DNA of 64,000 bases from Nocardiopsis alkaliphila YIM 80379. GTDB taxonomy: Bacteria; Actinomycetota; Actinomycetes; Streptosporangiales; Streptosporangiaceae. Under the pieces are notes generated by a model. It ran no database searches. It worked only from the letters and a program-made list of their open reading frames with translations, and was not told the origin of the DNA. Of the stretch, positions 42,130-50,604 are shown piece by piece; position 1 is the stretch's first letter, and every line of letters starts with the position of its first letter. Position numbers and translations under genes: made by a program. The stretch covers positions 9,207 through 73,206 of the forward strand of contig NZ_ANBD01000044.1 in assembly GCF_000341005.1 (NCBI RefSeq), written 5' to 3'.

Positions 42130-42534
42130 TCAAGAGACGTTGTTCTCGGCCCCGCTCTTGGTGAAGCGATCGCTTTCCAGCCGGTCGGCCAGCTCGTCCG
42201 TGCCCAGCAGGTCCCGACGGATCCGACCGGTCCGATACCCGACCCGGGCCACGATGTGGCCGGCGACCGGAACCGTCACCACCTGGAACAGGCCCACCAG
42301 GACCAGGGTCCCGGCGCTGAACACACCGGTCTCCTCCTGAGGAAGGATTCGCAGACCGATTCCCACCAACACCAGCAACAGCCCAAGGACCTGGGGCTTG
42401 GAAGCGGCGTGCATACGGGAGAGCAGGTCGGGGAAGCGGAGCAGACCGATTCCGGCGATGAGGGACAACAGCGCCCCGGCCAGAAGGCACAGAATCGCGA
42501 TCCAGTCCAGGATCTGGACGAACTCTTCGCTCAC
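42130..42534 (-). CDS. mnhG: Mrp/Mnh cation/proton antiporter subunit G
   Basis: A 134-residue membrane protein with three helices, including the family stretch ILCLLAGALLSLIAGIGLLRFPDLLSRMHAASKPQVLGLLLVLVG. It is the last gene of the antiporter operon; GTG 42534 overlaps the mnhF stop (GTGA). Part of a multi-subunit complex exporting Na+ (or other cations) in exchange for H+. Confidence 0.95.
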   Translation of the reverse strand: MSEEFVQILDWIAILCLLAGALLSLIAGIGLLRFPDLLSRMHAASKPQVLGLLLVLVGIGLRILPQEETGVFSAGTLVLVGLFQVVTVPVAGHIVARVGYRTGRIRRDLLGTDELADRLESDRFTKSGAENNVS

Positions 42535-42863
42535 GAGGTCTTCCCCTCCTCTTCGACCGTGTCCTCAGCGAGCCGGAAGACCGACGGGCCCTCATCGTCG
42601 TGACTCTCGGTGCGTCGGGCGACGAACTTGGCGATACTGACCGACCCCACGAAACCCAGCAGCGACAACACCAGCAGGGTGGGCAGGACCGTGGGGTCGC
42701 GGTTGAACGCCGCGTAGGCACCCAGACCGGTCAGGGAGAAGGCCAGCAAGGCGTCGACGGACAGTGCCCGGTCGAGGATGCTGGGCCCCAGCAGGAGTCG
42801 GACCATGCTCATCAGCGCGGCCACCGCGAGCAGGACGGCGATGATGATCCACAGCGTGTTCAC
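42531..42863 (-). CDS. mnhF: Mrp/Mnh antiporter subunit F
   Basis: A 110-residue protein with three helices and the subunit F core RLLLGPSILDRALSVDALLAFSLTGLGAYAAF. GTG 42863 overlaps the mnhE stop (GTGA). A ~25-residue acidic cytoplasmic tail follows the last helix. Confidence 0.95.
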   Translation of the reverse strand: MNTLWIIIAVLLAVAALMSMVRLLLGPSILDRALSVDALLAFSLTGLGAYAAFNRDPTVLPTLLVLSLLGFVGSVSIAKFVARRTESHDDEGPSVFRLAEDTVEEEGKTS

Positions 42864-43483
42864 ACGCTCCCCCTCTCAGAGGCCAACACGGCCTCCAGAT
42901 CGGCGATGTTCTCCCGGGTACCGATCCCGCGGGCGATGCGCTCCTCCAGCGCGTGGACGTCCTTCTTCGCCTTGGCCGCCTCCTCCTGGTTCCGCGCGCC
43001 CAACACGTGCACGTACAGCACGTGTTCGGGCTGGGAAGCCTCCACGATCACACTGCCCGGGATGATCGACGTGGCGATGGCGACACACACCATGATCAGG
43101 TCGGAATCGGTGCGCATCCGTACGGCGATCACCGAGCTCTTCACCGGTGGGCCGGGGCGGAGCACCCAGGAGCTGACCTCGATGCTCGCGGCGAACATCT
43201 TGCCCAGGATGTACAGGAGCATGTAGACGCCCTGTACCGGCCAGAACCGGAAGCCCGGAACGATCGGTGGCAGTGGAAAGACCATCATGATGGCCAACGA
43301 GACCAGGAACCCCAGGACGGCGAGCCCCAACGACTCTGGCCGTGGCTGGAAGGCGTTGAAGAGCAACATCCAGACCACGGTCATCCCCAGGGCCACCGGG
43401 ATCTGAACCTTGCCCAGCCGGCTTCGGACCGCGCGCACGCGCAGCTTCTTGCGGACCTTCTTCTTGGTCTGCGGTTCGTTCAT
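42860..43483 (-). CDS. mnhE: Mrp/Mnh antiporter subunit E
   Basis: A 207-residue protein. After a very basic N-terminus (KKKVRKKLRVRAVRSRLGK), hydrophobic helices and the family segment GVYMLLYILGKMFAASIEVSSWVLRPGP appear, with VCVAIATSIIPGSVIVEA typical of subunit E. The ATG at 43483 overlaps mnhD (ATGA). The C-terminal region (EEAAKAKKDVHALEERIARGIG) is a charged helix. Confidence 0.94.
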   Translation of the reverse strand: MNEPQTKKKVRKKLRVRAVRSRLGKVQIPVALGMTVVWMLLFNAFQPRPESLGLAVLGFLVSLAIMMVFPLPPIVPGFRFWPVQGVYMLLYILGKMFAASIEVSSWVLRPGPPVKSSVIAVRMRTDSDLIMVCVAIATSIIPGSVIVEASQPEHVLYVHVLGARNQEEAAKAKKDVHALEERIARGIGTRENIADLEAVLASERGSV

Positions 43484-45138
43484 CGAGAGCCTCCCAGGAC
43501 CGCGTCGATGTAGGGAGTGCGTGCCATCAGATCGGTCGCGGCCTCCGAGGAGTAGGCGATGAGCGGTCCGGCGAACACGGTCATGGCCAGGCCGAAGGCG
43601 ACCAAGGCCACGGTCGCGCCCACCATGCTCTTGGGCAGGACCACCGAGGTCACCACTGGAGTGGCCGCGGTGGAGGTGTCCCCCAGACGGGAGGACGGGC
43701 CGACCGCGTCGCCCGGACCCAGGGCCGCGGTGGAGGTGTCATCGTCCTCGGTGTCCTCCAGTACGGTGCCGGGCTCGGCGACCATGCCTTCGGACGGGGC
43801 GCGCCAGAAGGCGTAGTTCCACACGCGGGCGATGACGTACAGGGTCAGCAGGCTGGTGAGCACCGAGGCGCCGACCAAGGTGTAGGCGAGAGGAGTACCC
43901 GCGTCGACACCGGCCTGCATCAGCCCGATCTTGCCGAGGAAGCCCGACAGCGGCGGGATGCCGCCCAGATTCATCGCGGGGATGAAGAACAAGATGGCCA
44001 GGATCGGCGCGATCTTGGCCAGGCCACCGAGGTTGTCCAGCGCCGTGGATCCGCCTCTGCGTTCGATCAGACCCGTCACCAGGAACAACGTGGTCTGCAC
44101 GGTGATGTGGTGGGCGATGTAGTACACCGCGCCGGCCATGCCCAGCTGGCTGCCGAGGGCCACGCCGAACACCATGTAACCGATGTGACTGATCAAGGTG
44201 AACGACAGCAGACGCTTGATGTCGGTCTGCGCCACCGCGCCCAAGATGCCCAAGAGCATGGTGGCCAGGGCCACCCACATCAGGGCGTCGTTGAGCTGGA
44301 CGCCGGGGAACAGTAGTGTCTGCGTCCGAATGATCGCGTACACGCCCACCTTGGTGAGCAGCCCCGCGAACACCGCGGTGACCGGAGCCGGAGCGGTGGG
44401 GTAGGAGTCCGGCAGCCAGGCCGCGAGGGGGAACACCGCCGCCTTGATACCGAAGGCCACCAGCAGGATGACCTGTAGGATCAAGGCCAGGTCCGAGGAG
44501 AGCTCGGGTAGGCGCTCACCGAGCTGGGCCATGTTCACGGTTCCGGTCGCACCGAAGATCAACGCGATGGCGAGCAGGAACAGCACAGAGGAGACCAGCG
44601 AGACCACCACGTAGGTGGCGCCCGCCCGCATCCGCGACTGGGTACCGCCCAGGGTCAACAGCACGTAGCTGGCGGTCAGCAGGATCTCGAAACCGACGTA
44701 GAGGTTGAACAGGTCACCGGCGAGGAAGGCGTTGGAGACACCGGCCACCAGGATCAGGTAGGTCGGCTGGTACACCGACAACGGCGCCACCTCGGCCTTG
44801 CCGGCCATGCCCTGACCGATCGAGTAGATCAACACGGCCAGGGTCACGGCGGCGGAGACCGTCACCATCAACGCGGACAAGCGATCGGCGACCAGCGTGA
44901 TGCCGATCGGAGTCTCCCAGCCGCCCACTTGGACGGCCTGGGGCCCGAACACGTCGGCACCCACCATCAACGCGGCACCGATGACCAGCACGAGCGTCAG
45001 GGCGATGACACTGAGCCATTGCTGGACCCGCGGCCAGCGGATGCCCATCGCGAGCTTCACGCCGGCCGCGAAGAGCGGCAGCACCACCGGCAAGGGGACG
45101 AGGTAGTGCAGGAGTCCGGCGAAGTGGTCCCATCCCAT
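43480..45138 (-). CDS. mnhD: Mrp/Mnh antiporter subunit D
   Basis: A 552-residue multispanning subunit related to NuoM/N proton-pumping proteins. Conserved segments: LFNLYVGFEILLTASYVLLTLGGT, AFGIKAAVFPLAAWLPDSYPTAPAPVTAVFAGLLTKVGVYAIIRT (proton-path Lys) and LLSFTLISHIGYMVFGVAL. A ~60-residue polar loop near the C-terminus carries two copies of DTSTAA. ATG 45138 lies two bases after the mnhC stop. Confidence 0.95.
   Translation of the reverse strand: MGWDHFAGLLHYLVPLPVVLPLFAAGVKLAMGIRWPRVQQWLSVIALTLVLVIGAALMVGADVFGPQAVQVGGWETPIGITLVADRLSALMVTVSAAVTLAVLIYSIGQGMAGKAEVAPLSVYQPTYLILVAGVSNAFLAGDLFNLYVGFEILLTASYVLLTLGGTQSRMRAGATYVVVSLVSSVLFLLAIALIFGATGTVNMAQLGERLPELSSDLALILQVILLVAFGIKAAVFPLAAWLPDSYPTAPAPVTAVFAGLLTKVGVYAIIRTQTLLFPGVQLNDALMWVALATMLLGILGAVAQTDIKRLLSFTLISHIGYMVFGVALGSQLGMAGAVYYIAHHITVQTTLFLVTGLIERRGGSTALDNLGGLAKIAPILAILFFIPAMNLGGIPPLSGFLGKIGLMQAGVDAGTPLAYTLVGASVLTSLLTLYVIARVWNYAFWRAPSEGMVAEPGTVLEDTEDDDTSTAALGPGDAVGPSSRLGDTSTAATPVVTSVVLPKSMVGATVALVAFGLAMTVFAGPLIAYSSEAATDLMARTPYIDAVLGGSR
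43663..43740 (-). repeat. In-frame direct repeat in mnhD
   Basis: GGCCGCGGTGGAGGTGTC occurs at 43663-43680 and exactly 60 bases later at 43723-43740. Both copies encode DTSTAA in the polar cytoplasmic loop before the last helix of MnhD. A 20-codon duplication that then diverged between the copies is the likely origin. Confidence 0.75.
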
Positions 45139-45140
45139 GG

Positions 45141-45974
45141 TCAGTCGTTCCCTTGCAGGTCGCTGTCCTCTGCGCGAGCCAGGCGTTCACGCTCTGCCCG
45201 CATGGTCTGACGTGCCTGACGCCGTTGCGAACGGATGCGGCGACGCAGCTCGCGCCACAGTTCGCGTTCGGCGGCGCGGTCCGCACGTCGATGCTCACGC
45301 AGCCGCTTGCGGCCCAGACGAATGCGGCCACGCAGCTCCGTCACCTGATTGACCATGCTCTGTTGCCGGTCGGCCAGGCGACGCACCTTCTCCTGGGACC
45401 GTTCGTCGACCTTGCCGTCCTCGGCTTCCACCTCGAATCGGGCCAGCTCGGCCTGGGCGGCCGCGATCTCCGCCTTGATTCGGGCCTGTTCGGCCAGCTC
45501 TTGGGCGTCGGCGGCGGCGATGGTCGCTTGGAGCTCGGCGCGCTGCCTGCGGATGTCCGCTCGCAGTCGGCGACGCTCCTTCAGGAAACGCTGACGTACC
45601 GCGCGTCGACCCTCGCCCTGCACGATCCGCAGGTCCTCGGCGTCGTCTTGGACCTCGTCGTTGCCCTCCAGCTGCCAGCTCCGGTAGGCCAGGGCCAACA
45701 GGAAGGCCGTGATGCCGAGGGTGATGACGATCGCCGTCAAGATCAACGCCTGTGGCAGTGGGTCGGTCATCTCCTCGATGTCGGAGGTGAACCACCGGAC
45801 CGGAGGGCCACCCGGCTCCCCCGCCATGGCCAGGATCATCAGGTTGACGCCGTTGCTCATCACGATGAAGCCCAGCAGTACCCGGGTGAGGCTGCGTTCC
45901 AACAGGAGCACCACACCGACCGCGACGAGGAAACCGATGACGATGACGAGGGTCAGGCTGGGTGTCTCGCTCAC
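45141..45974 (-). CDS. mnhC: Mrp/Mnh antiporter subunit C with long coiled-coil tail
   Basis: 277 residues. Residues 1-100 are a normal subunit C, homologous to NuoK: three helices with RVLLGFIVMSNGVNLMIL and DPLPQALILTAIVITLGITAFLLAL. Subunit C is normally about 110-130 residues; here a further ~175 residues follow, extremely charged (RRAVRQRFLKERRRLRADIRRQRAELQ, EIAAAQAELARFEVE, RELRRRIRSQRRQARQTMR) and forming probable coiled coils on the cytoplasmic side. GTG 45974 overlaps the mnhA stop (GTGA). The tail may tether or regulate the complex; it is the operon's most unusual feature. Confidence 0.93.
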   Translation of the reverse strand: MSETPSLTLVIVIGFLVAVGVVLLLERSLTRVLLGFIVMSNGVNLMILAMAGEPGGPPVRWFTSDIEEMTDPLPQALILTAIVITLGITAFLLALAYRSWQLEGNDEVQDDAEDLRIVQGEGRRAVRQRFLKERRRLRADIRRQRAELQATIAAADAQELAEQARIKAEIAAAQAELARFEVEAEDGKVDERSQEKVRRLADRQQSMVNQVTELRGRIRLGRKRLREHRRADRAAERELWRELRRRIRSQRRQARQTMRAERERLARAEDSDLQGND

Positions 45975-48955
45975 GGAGTGACCTCCTCGGCTCGTGCGGG
46001 GGCTCCGTGCGCGGCCGCGTCCTCCTCGTACAGGGCGTCCCGTTCGATCTGTTCGTCGATCCGAGCACCGAGGCTGCGCAGGATATCCAGGATCAGACCG
46101 ATGACCAGCAGGTACACACCGATGTCGAAGAGCAGCGAGACCGTCACGTGGGCTTGGCCCAAGAGCCAGAAATCGATGTAGAAGTCGGCCCCGGCGAGCA
46201 CGTCCTCGAGGAAGATGGCGCCACCGAGCGCCGTACCCGTGGCTATGGCCAGACCGGCGCCGATCAGTGCGCCCGGCTGCACCCACGCGGTGGCGTACAG
46301 CTCGAACCTGCCACCGGCGAGGTAGCGGACGATGAACGCCAGACCCGCCACGATGCCACCGGCGAAACCACCGCCGATGTCCGTGTGACCGGTGAGCAGC
46401 AGGTACACCGAGATCGCCATGATCACGGGGAAGAGGAAGCGCGAGACCACCTCGAAGATGATCGACCGGCGTTCGGTGGGTTGTGCTTCCGCACCGGGCA
46501 ACCAAGCGCGGTTCCACTGCGGCCTGACGTGCATGTGCTGCGGAGCGACCCGCAGGTCGCCCAGCTCCACTCGATCGTGCCCGTTGGTGGGCTTGGGCGG
46601 AGGAGCGACGGACAACGCCATCACACCACTGGGTGCCTTCCGGGGCTGGGCCCGGCGGCGCACGAACATCAGGCTCGCCACACCGGCGGCCGCGGCGGCC
46701 AGCACCGCGATCTCGCCCATGGTGTCCCAGGCGCGGACGTCGACCAGCAGCACGGAGATGATGTTGTAGCCGCCGGCCTCGTCGGCCGCGTCCACGTAGG
46801 ACGGGCCATCGGGGCCGCCCAGGGCGATGGAGGGTTCTTGCCGACCGGCCAGGGCGTACCACGTCATGGTGGCCGCGAGCAGGCCGGTGGCGGCGCCGAT
46901 CGTCAGGTTCCAGATCCGGCGGCCTCTGAGCGCGGGTGCCGAGAACTGGGCCGGGAAGCGGCGCAGCACCAGGACGAAGACCACCAGGCTGACGGTTTCG
47001 ACGAGGAACTGGGTGAGCGCGATGTCGGGTGCGCCCTGCAGGTAGAACAAGGCGGCCACACCGTAACCGCCGACACCGACGAGGATGACCGCGTACAGAC
47101 GGCGCCGCACGAACAGGATCAACAGACAGGTGATGACGATGATCAGCGCGGGGATGACCTGAACCGGGGTGTCCCACAGGCGCAGTGGCGGGTAGTCGCC
47201 CACCCAGATCCGGCCCGTGATCATGGGGACGCCCGCACAGACCACGAGGAACACCAGGATGGTGCCGAGGTAGACCGGGAGCGAACCGCGCTGGGTGCTA
47301 CCGGTGACCTGGAGGGCCAGGCTCTCCAACCCCGCCGTCATCCGACGGTAGTTGCGCTCGGGATGAAAGACCGTGAACCGAGTACCGAGCCAGGCCACCC
47401 GGTGGCGGAAGTAGAACAGCACCAGACCACCGGCGACGCAGACCGCCGACAGCAGCAGGGGCGCCTCCCATCCGTGCCACAGGGCCAGGTAGGAGGGGTG
47501 TTCCTCGTGCGGTCCCGGAGGGACCGTGTCGGCGTAGACGGCGAAGAGCGGGTCGATCCAGGAGGAGAGGAGACCGCCGAACAGGCTGAGCACGGCCAGG
47601 ACCACGGCCGGTGCGAGGAAGGGGGCACCGGGGGCCTGGACCGGGGTGGGCGGCACACCCTCCTTGTCGAGGAAGGCGCCCCACAGGAAGCGCAGACTGT
47701 AGGCCACCGTGAAGGTCGAACCGACCACCAGGCCGAGCAGGACCAGGGCGTCGATGACACCGCCCTCGGTGTAGGCACCGAAGGCGAGTTCCTTGGCGAC
47801 GAAACCGGCGGTGGGCGGCAGACCGGACATGGAGGCCAGGGCCACGACCGTGACCCAGAAGGTGCCCGGCATGGCTTTGCGCAGTCCGGAGAGTTCACGC
47901 AGGTCTCGGCTCCCGGTGCCGTGATCGATGATGCCGACCACGAGGAACAGGGGAGCTTTGAAGAGGGAGTGCGCGACGAGCATCGCGATTCCCGCGAGGG
48001 CGGCGGCCCGGGTTCCGGTGCCCAGCAGGGCGATGAGGAAACCGAGCTGACTGATGGTGCCGTAGGCCAGAACGAGCTTGAGGTCGACCTGGCGTAGTGC
48101 TTTCCATCCACCGAGCACCATGGTGATGACACCGAAGAACAGTGCCATGGCCTGCCAGACGAGGACGTCGCCGAAGACGGGGGTGAGACGGGCGACCAGG
48201 TAGACACCCGCCTTGACCATCGCCGCGGCGTGCAGGTAACCGGAGACCGGTGTGGGAGCCTGCATGGCGGCGGGGAGCCAGAGGCTGAAGGGGAACAGCG
48301 CCGACTTGGACATGGCGCCGATCATGATCAGCACGAGGGCCGCGTCGACGATGGCACCGGAGGTCGGAGGGTCGGCGACGATCTCGGAGATCACGTAGGT
48401 CCCGGCGGTCTCGCCGAGCATGACCATGCCGACCAGCATCGCCAGACCGCCGAAGGTGGTGACGGTCAGGGCCGTCATCGCAGCCCGGCGACTGTCCTTC
48501 GATTCGGCCTTGTGGCCGACCAGAAGGTAGGAGAAGACCGTGGTCAGTTCCCAGTAGATGAAGAGCTGGATGAGGTCATCGGCCAGTACGAGACCGAGCA
48601 TGGCGCCCGCGAACGCGACGAACACGCCGGCGAAGCGGGGCAGTCCCGGTTCGGAGTCACTGAAGTAGCGCGCGCAGTAGACCAGGATGAGGGTGCCCAC
48701 GCCCGCGGCGATGAGCGTCATGACCAGTCCGAGGGCGTCCATGTGCAGGCCGAGCCGCAGCGAGAACTGTGGTGCCCACTCGACGGCTTCGGACAGGCCC
48801 TCGCCGTTCAGGATGGTCGGTAGCTGGAACAGGGCCCATATGGTCGACAGACCGGGAACGATCGCGAGCGCGTAGAAGCCGTTGCGGCCCCACAGGCGCA
48901 CTAGTAACGGCGCGACCGCTGCGGTGATGAAATGCGCGACCAGCACTGTTGTCAA
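45971..48955 (-). CDS. mnhA: Mrp/Mnh antiporter subunit A fused to subunit B domain
   Basis: A 994-residue polytopic protein. The N-terminal ~500 residues are NuoL-like (VYCARYFSD, QLFIYWELTTVFSYLLVGHKAESKDSRRAAM, LWLPAAMQAPTPVSGYLHAAAMVKAGVYLVARL with the proton-path residues). A middle MrpA-specific part follows, and the C-terminal ~150 residues (FPVIMAISVYLLLTGHTDIGGGFAGGIVAGLAFIVRYLAGG) equal subunit B. TTG 48955 with GGGAGGGG upstream is preferred over the open frame to 49078. First gene of the operon A(B)-C-D-E-F-G, divergent from a MarR gene. Confidence 0.95.
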   Translation of the reverse strand: MTTVLVAHFITAAVAPLLVRLWGRNGFYALAIVPGLSTIWALFQLPTILNGEGLSEAVEWAPQFSLRLGLHMDALGLVMTLIAAGVGTLILVYCARYFSDSEPGLPRFAGVFVAFAGAMLGLVLADDLIQLFIYWELTTVFSYLLVGHKAESKDSRRAAMTALTVTTFGGLAMLVGMVMLGETAGTYVISEIVADPPTSGAIVDAALVLIMIGAMSKSALFPFSLWLPAAMQAPTPVSGYLHAAAMVKAGVYLVARLTPVFGDVLVWQAMALFFGVITMVLGGWKALRQVDLKLVLAYGTISQLGFLIALLGTGTRAAALAGIAMLVAHSLFKAPLFLVVGIIDHGTGSRDLRELSGLRKAMPGTFWVTVVALASMSGLPPTAGFVAKELAFGAYTEGGVIDALVLLGLVVGSTFTVAYSLRFLWGAFLDKEGVPPTPVQAPGAPFLAPAVVLAVLSLFGGLLSSWIDPLFAVYADTVPPGPHEEHPSYLALWHGWEAPLLLSAVCVAGGLVLFYFRHRVAWLGTRFTVFHPERNYRRMTAGLESLALQVTGSTQRGSLPVYLGTILVFLVVCAGVPMITGRIWVGDYPPLRLWDTPVQVIPALIIVITCLLILFVRRRLYAVILVGVGGYGVAALFYLQGAPDIALTQFLVETVSLVVFVLVLRRFPAQFSAPALRGRRIWNLTIGAATGLLAATMTWYALAGRQEPSIALGGPDGPSYVDAADEAGGYNIISVLLVDVRAWDTMGEIAVLAAAAAGVASLMFVRRRAQPRKAPSGVMALSVAPPPKPTNGHDRVELGDLRVAPQHMHVRPQWNRAWLPGAEAQPTERRSIIFEVVSRFLFPVIMAISVYLLLTGHTDIGGGFAGGIVAGLAFIVRYLAGGRFELYATAWVQPGALIGAGLAIATGTALGGAIFLEDVLAGADFYIDFWLLGQAHVTVSLLFDIGVYLLVIGLILDILRSLGARIDEQIERDALYEEDAAAHGAPARAEEVTP

Positions 48956-49191
48956 TGCGCCCCTCCCGGACCGGTCCGGGCCCACCCGGGAACCTCGGGC
49001 GGACGTCCACTGCCCCGCAGTAAACGACGCCGCCCACAGTCGGACCGAAGGGGATGTCGTTTCCGTGTCGAGGGGCATGGATCTACTTGAATTTGCGTGC
49101 TTAAGCTATTTAATAGTTAGGCTACACACACGTCAAACTACCGCGCGGGTCGGGTACCCGTGCGCAGAGCCCAGCCAGCGAGGACCGTTTC
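48956..49191. promoter_or_regulatory. Divergent promoter region mnh operon / marR with dyads
   Basis: An A/T-rich patch (49085-49135) in an otherwise GC-rich region contains two touching dyads, GCTTAAGC (49099-49106) and CTATT-T-AATAG (49106-49116). They lie 76 bases before marR and 144 bases from the mnhA start. They are the best candidate operator for the MarR protein and may control both directions (inference). Confidence 0.5.
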
Positions 49192-49686
49192 GTGCTCGAT
49201 GAGACCCCCGAGGCCTGTTCTGAACAGCAGGGACGCACTGAGCCGAACTCGGCTGAACTCGAAGAGTTCCAGCGCGTGTGGACCGAACTCATCAACGCGG
49301 CGCTTCATGCCCGATCCCGGGGCGGGCACGGGCATCGCGGTGTTGATGAGGTCACCTTGACGCAGTCGCTCCTCATGGAGACGGTGCGTGGGATGGAGAA
49401 CCCGAGTGTCGGTGCCATCGCCCACATCGTCGGTGTGTCCTCGCCCTCGGCCACTCGGATGATCCAGCAGTTGGAGCGTAAGGGGATGATGGCCCGACGG
49501 CGCTCGGAACGTGACGAACGCAGCACCGTGGTCACCATCACGGAGGAGGGCGAGCGAGCCCTGGCCGAACGTCGCAAGTACATGGAACGAAAGCAACGCC
49601 AGGTCTTCGACGCGATCAGGCCCTCACTGCGCCCGCTCGTTCTCGACGTCCTGCGTGATCTGCGCGACGCCATAGACGAGACCTGA
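49192..49686 (+). CDS. MarR-family regulator
   Basis: 164 residues with a winged helix (MENPSVGAIAHIVGVSSPSATRMIQQLERKGMMARRRSERDERSTVVTITEEG) and flanking dimerisation helices; the acidic N-terminal ~20 residues are extra. GTG 49192 follows GAGGA at seven bases. Divergent from the mnh operon over an A/T-rich dyad region, so regulation of the antiporter is possible. Confidence 0.9.
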   Translation: MLDETPEACSEQQGRTEPNSAELEEFQRVWTELINAALHARSRGGHGHRGVDEVTLTQSLLMETVRGMENPSVGAIAHIVGVSSPSATRMIQQLERKGMMARRRSERDERSTVVTITEEGERALAERRKYMERKQRQVFDAIRPSLRPLVLDVLRDLRDAIDET

Positions 49687-49953: not shown

Positions 49954-50604
49954 ATGTACGCCACACTCGCCACCGAGTACTCATCGAGCGGTGGGTTCGA
50001 CGACCAATTGGCGGCGCGCCTGTTGCGCAGTCGCGTCGTCCTGCTCGGCGGCCAGGTCGACGAGGAGAGCGCCAACCGGGTGTGCGCGCAGATCCTCCTG
50101 CTGGCCGATGACGATCCGCACAAGGACATCACCGTGGCGATCAACAGCCCCGGTGGAGTGATCAGCGCCGGACTCGCCATCTACGACACGATGAACTTCG
50201 TGCCCAACGACGTGTCCACTCTGGTCATGGGCTTCGCCGCCAGCATGGGGCAGTTCCTGGCCTGTACCGGGGCGTCGGGCAAGCGTTACAGCATGCCGCA
50301 CGCGCGGATCATGATGCACCAGCCATCCGGAGGACTCGGCGGGACCGCCGCCGACATCGCGATTCAGGCCGAGAACCTGGCGCACACCAAGAGCACCATG
50401 GTGCGGCTCATCGCCGAACACAGTGGCCAGAGCGAACGGACCATCGCTGAGGATCAGCACCGGGACGCCTGGTTCACCGCTGAGGAGGCCCGGGAGTACG
50501 GCTTCATCGACCACGTGGTCGAGACCGCCGATCAGATGGCGGGTGGGATGCGGTTCGGTGGCTCGGCGCCGGGGTTCGCCCACCGGACGGGAGGTGTCCG
50601 ATGA
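49954..50604 (+). CDS. clpP: ATP-dependent Clp protease proteolytic subunit
   Basis: A 216-residue serine protease that forms tetradecameric chambers fed by Clp ATPases. The triad is intact: Ser97 in GFAASMGQ, His122 in ARIMMHQP, Asp171 in QHRDAWFT; the oxyanion strand INSPGG is present. No long propeptide is obvious. ATG 49954 follows GAGGAGGGA. Its stop overlaps the start of a second clpP (ATGA). Such pairs form mixed ClpP rings in actinobacteria; location with a ClgR/PopR-like gene suggests the inducible ClpP3/ClpP4-type set. Confidence 0.95.

Follow-up and report, generated by a model that had tools for sequence, protein, structure and literature searches.

A predicted helical hairpin of variable length on subunit C of a Nocardiopsis Mrp antiporter

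Mrp complexes have a relative in the ancestral module of complex I. The topology shared by NuoK and MrpC places the residues that follow the third membrane helix in the cytoplasm. Solved MrpC chains (6z16_C, 7qru_C, 7d3u_C (Dietzia)) have the same three-helix membrane fold as the MnhC protein considered here. The solved MrpC-type chains that we found are 109-137 aa long and their matches to MnhC end at residue 109 or before; they lack the hairpin that is predicted below for the Nocardiopsis protein. In Bacillus, the interface between MrpA and MrpC contains a cytosolic cavity with its mouth close to MrpC Arg27 (PMC9568556), and the MrpC-Q70A substitution weakens complex assembly (PMC5703873). 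Cation entry from the cytoplasm beside MrpC is debated (PMC9568556, PMC7419157).

The mnh operon and its extended subunit C

Within the 64,000-nucleotide stretch of Nocardiopsis DNA that was analysed (the window), mnhC lies on the minus strand and is open from a GTG at 45974 to a TGA at 45141, encoding 277 aa, with a 4-nt overlap between its 5' end and the stop of mnhA. It forms part of an operon, mnhA-C-D-E-F-G, whose other members, also on the minus strand, are mnhA (45971..49078, start codon putative; Proton_antipo_M, MbhD, MbhE and MnhB domains), mnhD (43480..45138; Proton_antipo_M), mnhE (42860..43483; PF01899), mnhF (42531..42863; PF04066) and mnhG (42130..42534; PF03334). The MnhB domain occupies residues 874-997 of MnhA, an MrpA/MrpB fusion of the kind that defines group 2 Mrp operons (PMC9568556). 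MnhC itself matches PF00420 (Oxidored_q2, NuoK-like) over residues 9-110 (79.3 bits, cut-off 26.1) and the subunit C equivalog NF005929 (NCBIfam) over residues 4-205 (254.6 bits, cut-off 157). Judged by these matches and its place in the operon, Nocardiopsis MnhC is an Mrp (CPA3) antiporter subunit C, and cation/proton antiport is predicted for the complex.

Several features of the neighbourhood deserve mention in their own right. MnhD carries a late acidic low-complexity insert (EDTEDDDTSTAALGPGDAVGPSS) near residues 455-510 and is 543-555 aa long in the Nocardiopsis-like clade, against about 506-530 aa in most other fetched loci; MnhE bears a very basic extension (MNEPQTKKKVRKKLRVRAVRSRLGK) ahead of its first membrane helix. 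Genes for a MarR-type regulator (49192-49686) and a ClpP protease (49954-50604) adjoin or lie near the operon on the plus strand, opposite to it, and different genes occupy the upstream flanks of mnh operons in other genera. Among the other Mrp subunits, no companion change was tied to the hairpin, and the lengths of A, D and F track clade.

The membrane part of MnhC, residues 1-98 (45681..45974, minus, as are all segments below), is a three-helix MrpC/NuoK-like domain by PF00420 and AF2 (helices 6-23, 28-49 and from 71 onward), after which a cytoplasmic extension of about 179 residues follows. The initial annotation had given the tail about 175 residues; the stretch 45141-45650 encodes 169 of them (residues 109-277), and a long charged C-terminal tail on an open frame is indeed present, composed of 28% Arg/Lys, 18% Asp/Glu and only 9% G/P/S/T/N. 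Its predicted cytoplasmic location is supported by homology to the NuoK/MrpC topology and by the R27/R31 loop. An acidic juxtamembrane segment, QLEGNDEVQDDAEDLRI (residues 99-121, 45612..45680), leads into two predicted helices, the amphipathic arm 1 (residues 122-185, 45420..45611) and arm 2 (residues 191-255, 45210..45404), separated by a predicted turn, or tip (residues 186-190, 45405..45419). Conserved Arg residues line one face of arm 2 towards its base, and the protein ends in a conserved C-terminal motif, RAERERLARAEDSDLQG (residues 256-277, 45144..45209).

The annotation had also foreseen that a stop or frameshift near 45650, or absence from close relatives, might explain the extension away. 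Neither was encountered, as 33 further fetched loci encode this MnhC at 276-278 aa and 74-94% identity: 31 are labelled Nocardiopsis, with two MAGs among these 31, and the other two are labelled Streptomonospora and Glycomyces. The last, a record labelled Glycomyces fuscus (L057), has an MnhC that shares 85% identity with the Nocardiopsis form and is possibly a mislabelled genome. Across the 34 aligned genes, pN/pS is 0.27 in the tail and 0.31 in the membrane part, falling to 0.10 in the juxtamembrane segment and 0.14 in the C-terminal motif and rising to 0.45 at residues 183-200 around the turn. Purifying selection on the tail is thus as strong as on the membrane domain, and together with the 33 loci these values rule out a frameshift or assembly error.

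Two other accounts of the conserved coding sequence were set aside. An antisense ORF (45153-46181) is not a true gene, since the antisense frames are broken in 4, 24 and 34 of the 34 relatives and that of mnhC is the only frame open in all 34. Nor is the C-terminus kept merely for the likely mnhD ribosome-binding site, AAGGG at 45150..45154 (minus; assigned from sequence), which falls within the LQG codons: synonymous change at the C-terminus (pS 0.387) is not reduced relative to other regions, and only the LQG codons may therefore be constrained by that site.

Predicted shape and conservation of the extension

With a 28-sequence alignment, AF2 places helices at 71-184 and 190-274 (numbered without the first residue) with tail pLDDT 78-92; for the tail alone, without an alignment, it places them at 122-185 and 191-275 with pLDDT mostly 85-97 and low confidence for the acidic segment before arm 1. 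Both models break at residues 186-190. AF2 readily makes hairpins, and these are models of monomers from 28 sequences or one, with pTM 0.42 and 0.60. Independently of AF2, we sought the strongest helix breaker between two anchors, DDxED and RxxRxx(Q/L)ARA, in 59 distinct sequences, and found it near the midpoint in most, the exceptions being about a quarter of the rows, in which another weak breaker scored higher. Inter-anchor lengths span 42-141 residues, approximately threefold, and the breaker divides them as 19/23 (42 residues), 26/19 (45), 29/25 (54), 48/44 (92) and 71/70 (141, the window), with one off-centre case among the relatives, 42/21.

Hydrophobic columns recur at 98-100 degrees in both arms (0/5000 shuffles as high), as they also do in a single sequence, pointing to an 11-residue hendecad repeat. 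A heptad period (3.5 residues, 102.9 degrees) was not detected in either arm (p=0.34 in arm 1, p=0.10 in arm 2), which sets the tail apart from canonical coiled coils, and opposite-charge i,i+4 pairs of the single alpha-helix type are not in excess in the tail. A mirror test of hydrophobic positions gave several equal peaks and is compatible with an antiparallel register, though not uniquely. Structural matches to the tail are mostly two-helix hairpins, among them a designed one that superposes over 79 residues with an rmsd of 1.0-1.2 A, and an antiparallel packing of the arms is suggested because the PDB matches take this form. Taken together, the models and patterns are best read as a hairpin whose two helices run antiparallel and whose length varies; of the "charged coiled coil" first proposed, the charge and the long helices stand, and the heptad gives way to a hendecad and a predicted hairpin.

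Pairs of long antiparallel helices with a short connecting turn are likewise found in the LSD1 tower, the seryl-tRNA synthetase arm, PspA/Vipp1 and HP0958. Such generic matches reach a Z of at most 11.3, in the common range for long helices and at low identity, and we claim no kinship; the ESCRT-III-like PspA/Vipp1 match (Z 9.6-10) lies inside this generic range.

Conservation of the tail and distance from the tip rise together, with a Spearman coefficient of 0.57 (p=4e-15). Across 18 sequences, identity is 0.14 at the turn, the least conserved part, 0.19-0.29 in the distal arms, 0.55 at the base of the C-terminal arm, 0.66 in the C-terminal motif and 0.79 in the juxtamembrane segment, with 0.67 in the membrane part. 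Conserved Arg columns (R237, R241, R248, R252, R255, R259 and R262) share one helix face. Among full-length relatives, the net charge of the tail lies anywhere between -1 and +16, and this lack of conservation argues against anchoring to DNA or ribosomes through charge, which the initial annotation had offered.

Tail types and their distribution among actinomycetes

A class-wide survey showed that extensions are common in actinomycete MnhC, in answer to the question of how widely the tail occurs. NF005929 was matched at E <= 1e-15 in 123/296 genomes of the class, 99 of them over its cut-off; in the window's family, 61/150 genomes had an MnhC match, and 24 matches reached nearly to the protein end. 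Tails read from about 70 fetched loci fell mainly into two types. The first is R/E-rich and helix-prone, 80-160 aa long with few G/P/S/T/N, and occurs in the window's family (f1), including shorter MnhC versions of 225 and 195 aa, and in one other family (f18), whose tails have a short hairpin form with other sequence beyond. The second, in the remaining families read, is up to 193 aa long and follows the DEVQDDxED motif at the same place; it differs from the hairpin in being acidic, rich in G/P/S/T/N and devoid of the C-terminal ARA motif. Such acidic and probably disordered tails are carried by most of the other MnhC proteins of actinomycetes. One tail (L114) is intermediate.

The acidic juxtamembrane motif is conserved class-wide and is present even where the hairpin is missing, and the RxxRxxQARAxD element of the C-terminal motif recurs in family f18. 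Five f18 proteins (L084, L088, L092, L115, L118) have a conserved motif (ILGADPE region) after the hairpin, in some followed by a disordered tail. In a tree of the membrane part, a short alignment, the hairpin label needs at least 3 changes, compared with 19 in shuffles, and a single origin of the hairpin would still be conceivable. The same Nocardiopsis genome encodes two tail-less MnhC paralogs of 103 aa each.

How far the extension is new depends on where one looks. The suggestion that it has no counterpart in studied complexes holds for structures, as it is missing from every solved MrpC-type chain found, but not for sequences: NF005929 reaches residue 205, and about 20 genera in the window's family have the hairpin tail. 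The model (PRK07946.1; 204 positions) matched all 12 members of the tested set and gives no account of the hairpin, turn and C-terminal motif of the 277-aa form. A search covering open-licence papers found no description of the extension. Being partly inside an existing family model, it is not unseen but unremarked in the searched literature, and the extension is a real and conserved addition, apparently undescribed, to a well-known subunit.

A possible role at the membrane base

Prediction and comparison support a path in which the tail leaves the membrane at residue ~98 through its acidic segment (GNDEVQDDAEDLRI), continues as a straight hendecad helix of about 64 residues, turns at 186-190 and comes back as an antiparallel helix, which would bring the C-terminal motif (RAERERLARAED) to the membrane surface, alongside the acidic segment; the return of this motif to the hairpin base is a prediction of the models. 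The working part would be that base. Perhaps the Arg-rich C-terminal helix sits against the acidic juxtamembrane segment and the cytoplasmic sides of MnhA and MnhD, so bracing MnhC in the complex and shaping the cytosolic cation entry adjoining it, with the shaft as a spacer of variable length. Because this contact would be ionic, its strength may vary with cytoplasmic salt. A part in sensing ionic strength, as the initial annotation suggested, is conceivable.

A role at the membrane base, in assembly or cytosolic cation access, is favoured over tip docking or nucleic-acid binding because the hairpin is best conserved at its base and least at its tip, and because its net charge varies; the base-level function is itself deduced from conservation. 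The bracing and entry role is preferred in view of the Bacillus cavity near MrpC Arg27 and the assembly defect of MrpC-Q70A. Counting against it, most actinomycete Mrp complexes work without a hairpin, and the charge stripes of the two arms, described below, fit an antiparallel pair poorly; we hold the explanation as a whole tentatively, a little short of an even call.

The hairpin might instead be a stalk whose shaft or tip ties a cytoplasmic partner (kinase, cytoskeleton, enzyme) to the antiporter. Arms of ~87 residues would reach ~13 nm from the membrane (87 x 1.5 A), arm 1 is strongly conserved within Nocardiopsis (identity 0.87 at residues 119-182), and some of the long hairpins among the fold matches, the LSD1 tower and the dynein stalk, serve docking. 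Across genera, however, identity is lowest at the tip and in the distal arms (0.14-0.29), which disfavours docking through the tip; hairpin length varies threefold, and no genomic partner is common to all hairpin loci, the best upstream ORF cluster occurring in at most 13 of 27. We consider such a stalk unlikely. A different geometry, parallel pairing of arms between two MnhC copies, could join protomers or neighbouring complexes: R/K and D/E stripes flank the hydrophobic core on opposite sides, with the same handedness in both arms, an arrangement that in an antiparallel pair would bring like charges together along one edge and that suits parallel pairing better. Mrp is indeed a dimer (PMC7419157), but its solved contact runs through MrpE and MrpB, not MrpC (PMC7419157, PMC9568556), and both AF2 and the central position of the breaker point to a hairpin, making this pairing quite improbable.

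Binding of acidic lipids by an Arg-rich face resting flat against the inner membrane seems more doubtful again; the columns R237-R262 on one helix face and the generic likeness to the membrane-binding hairpins PspA/Vipp1 would agree with it, but the hydrophobic stripe is required for arm pairing and net charge drops to -1 in some relatives. As for a nearly neutral helical leftover with little function, the absence of the hairpin from most Mrp complexes and from the two paralogs is what speaks for it, and purifying selection and the retention of the base motifs across genera render it very hard to credit.

Returning to the base-level reading, a clean truncation test is available because hairpin-less paralogs exist in the same genome. 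It is tempting to speculate, though we think it rather unlikely, that the length-variable hairpin is a dedicated gate or brace for cation entry in an actinobacterial class of Mrp complexes, absent from the studied Mrp complexes and from complex I. A conserved element at the cytosolic end of MrpC would in any case offer a natural handle on the debated route of cation entry.
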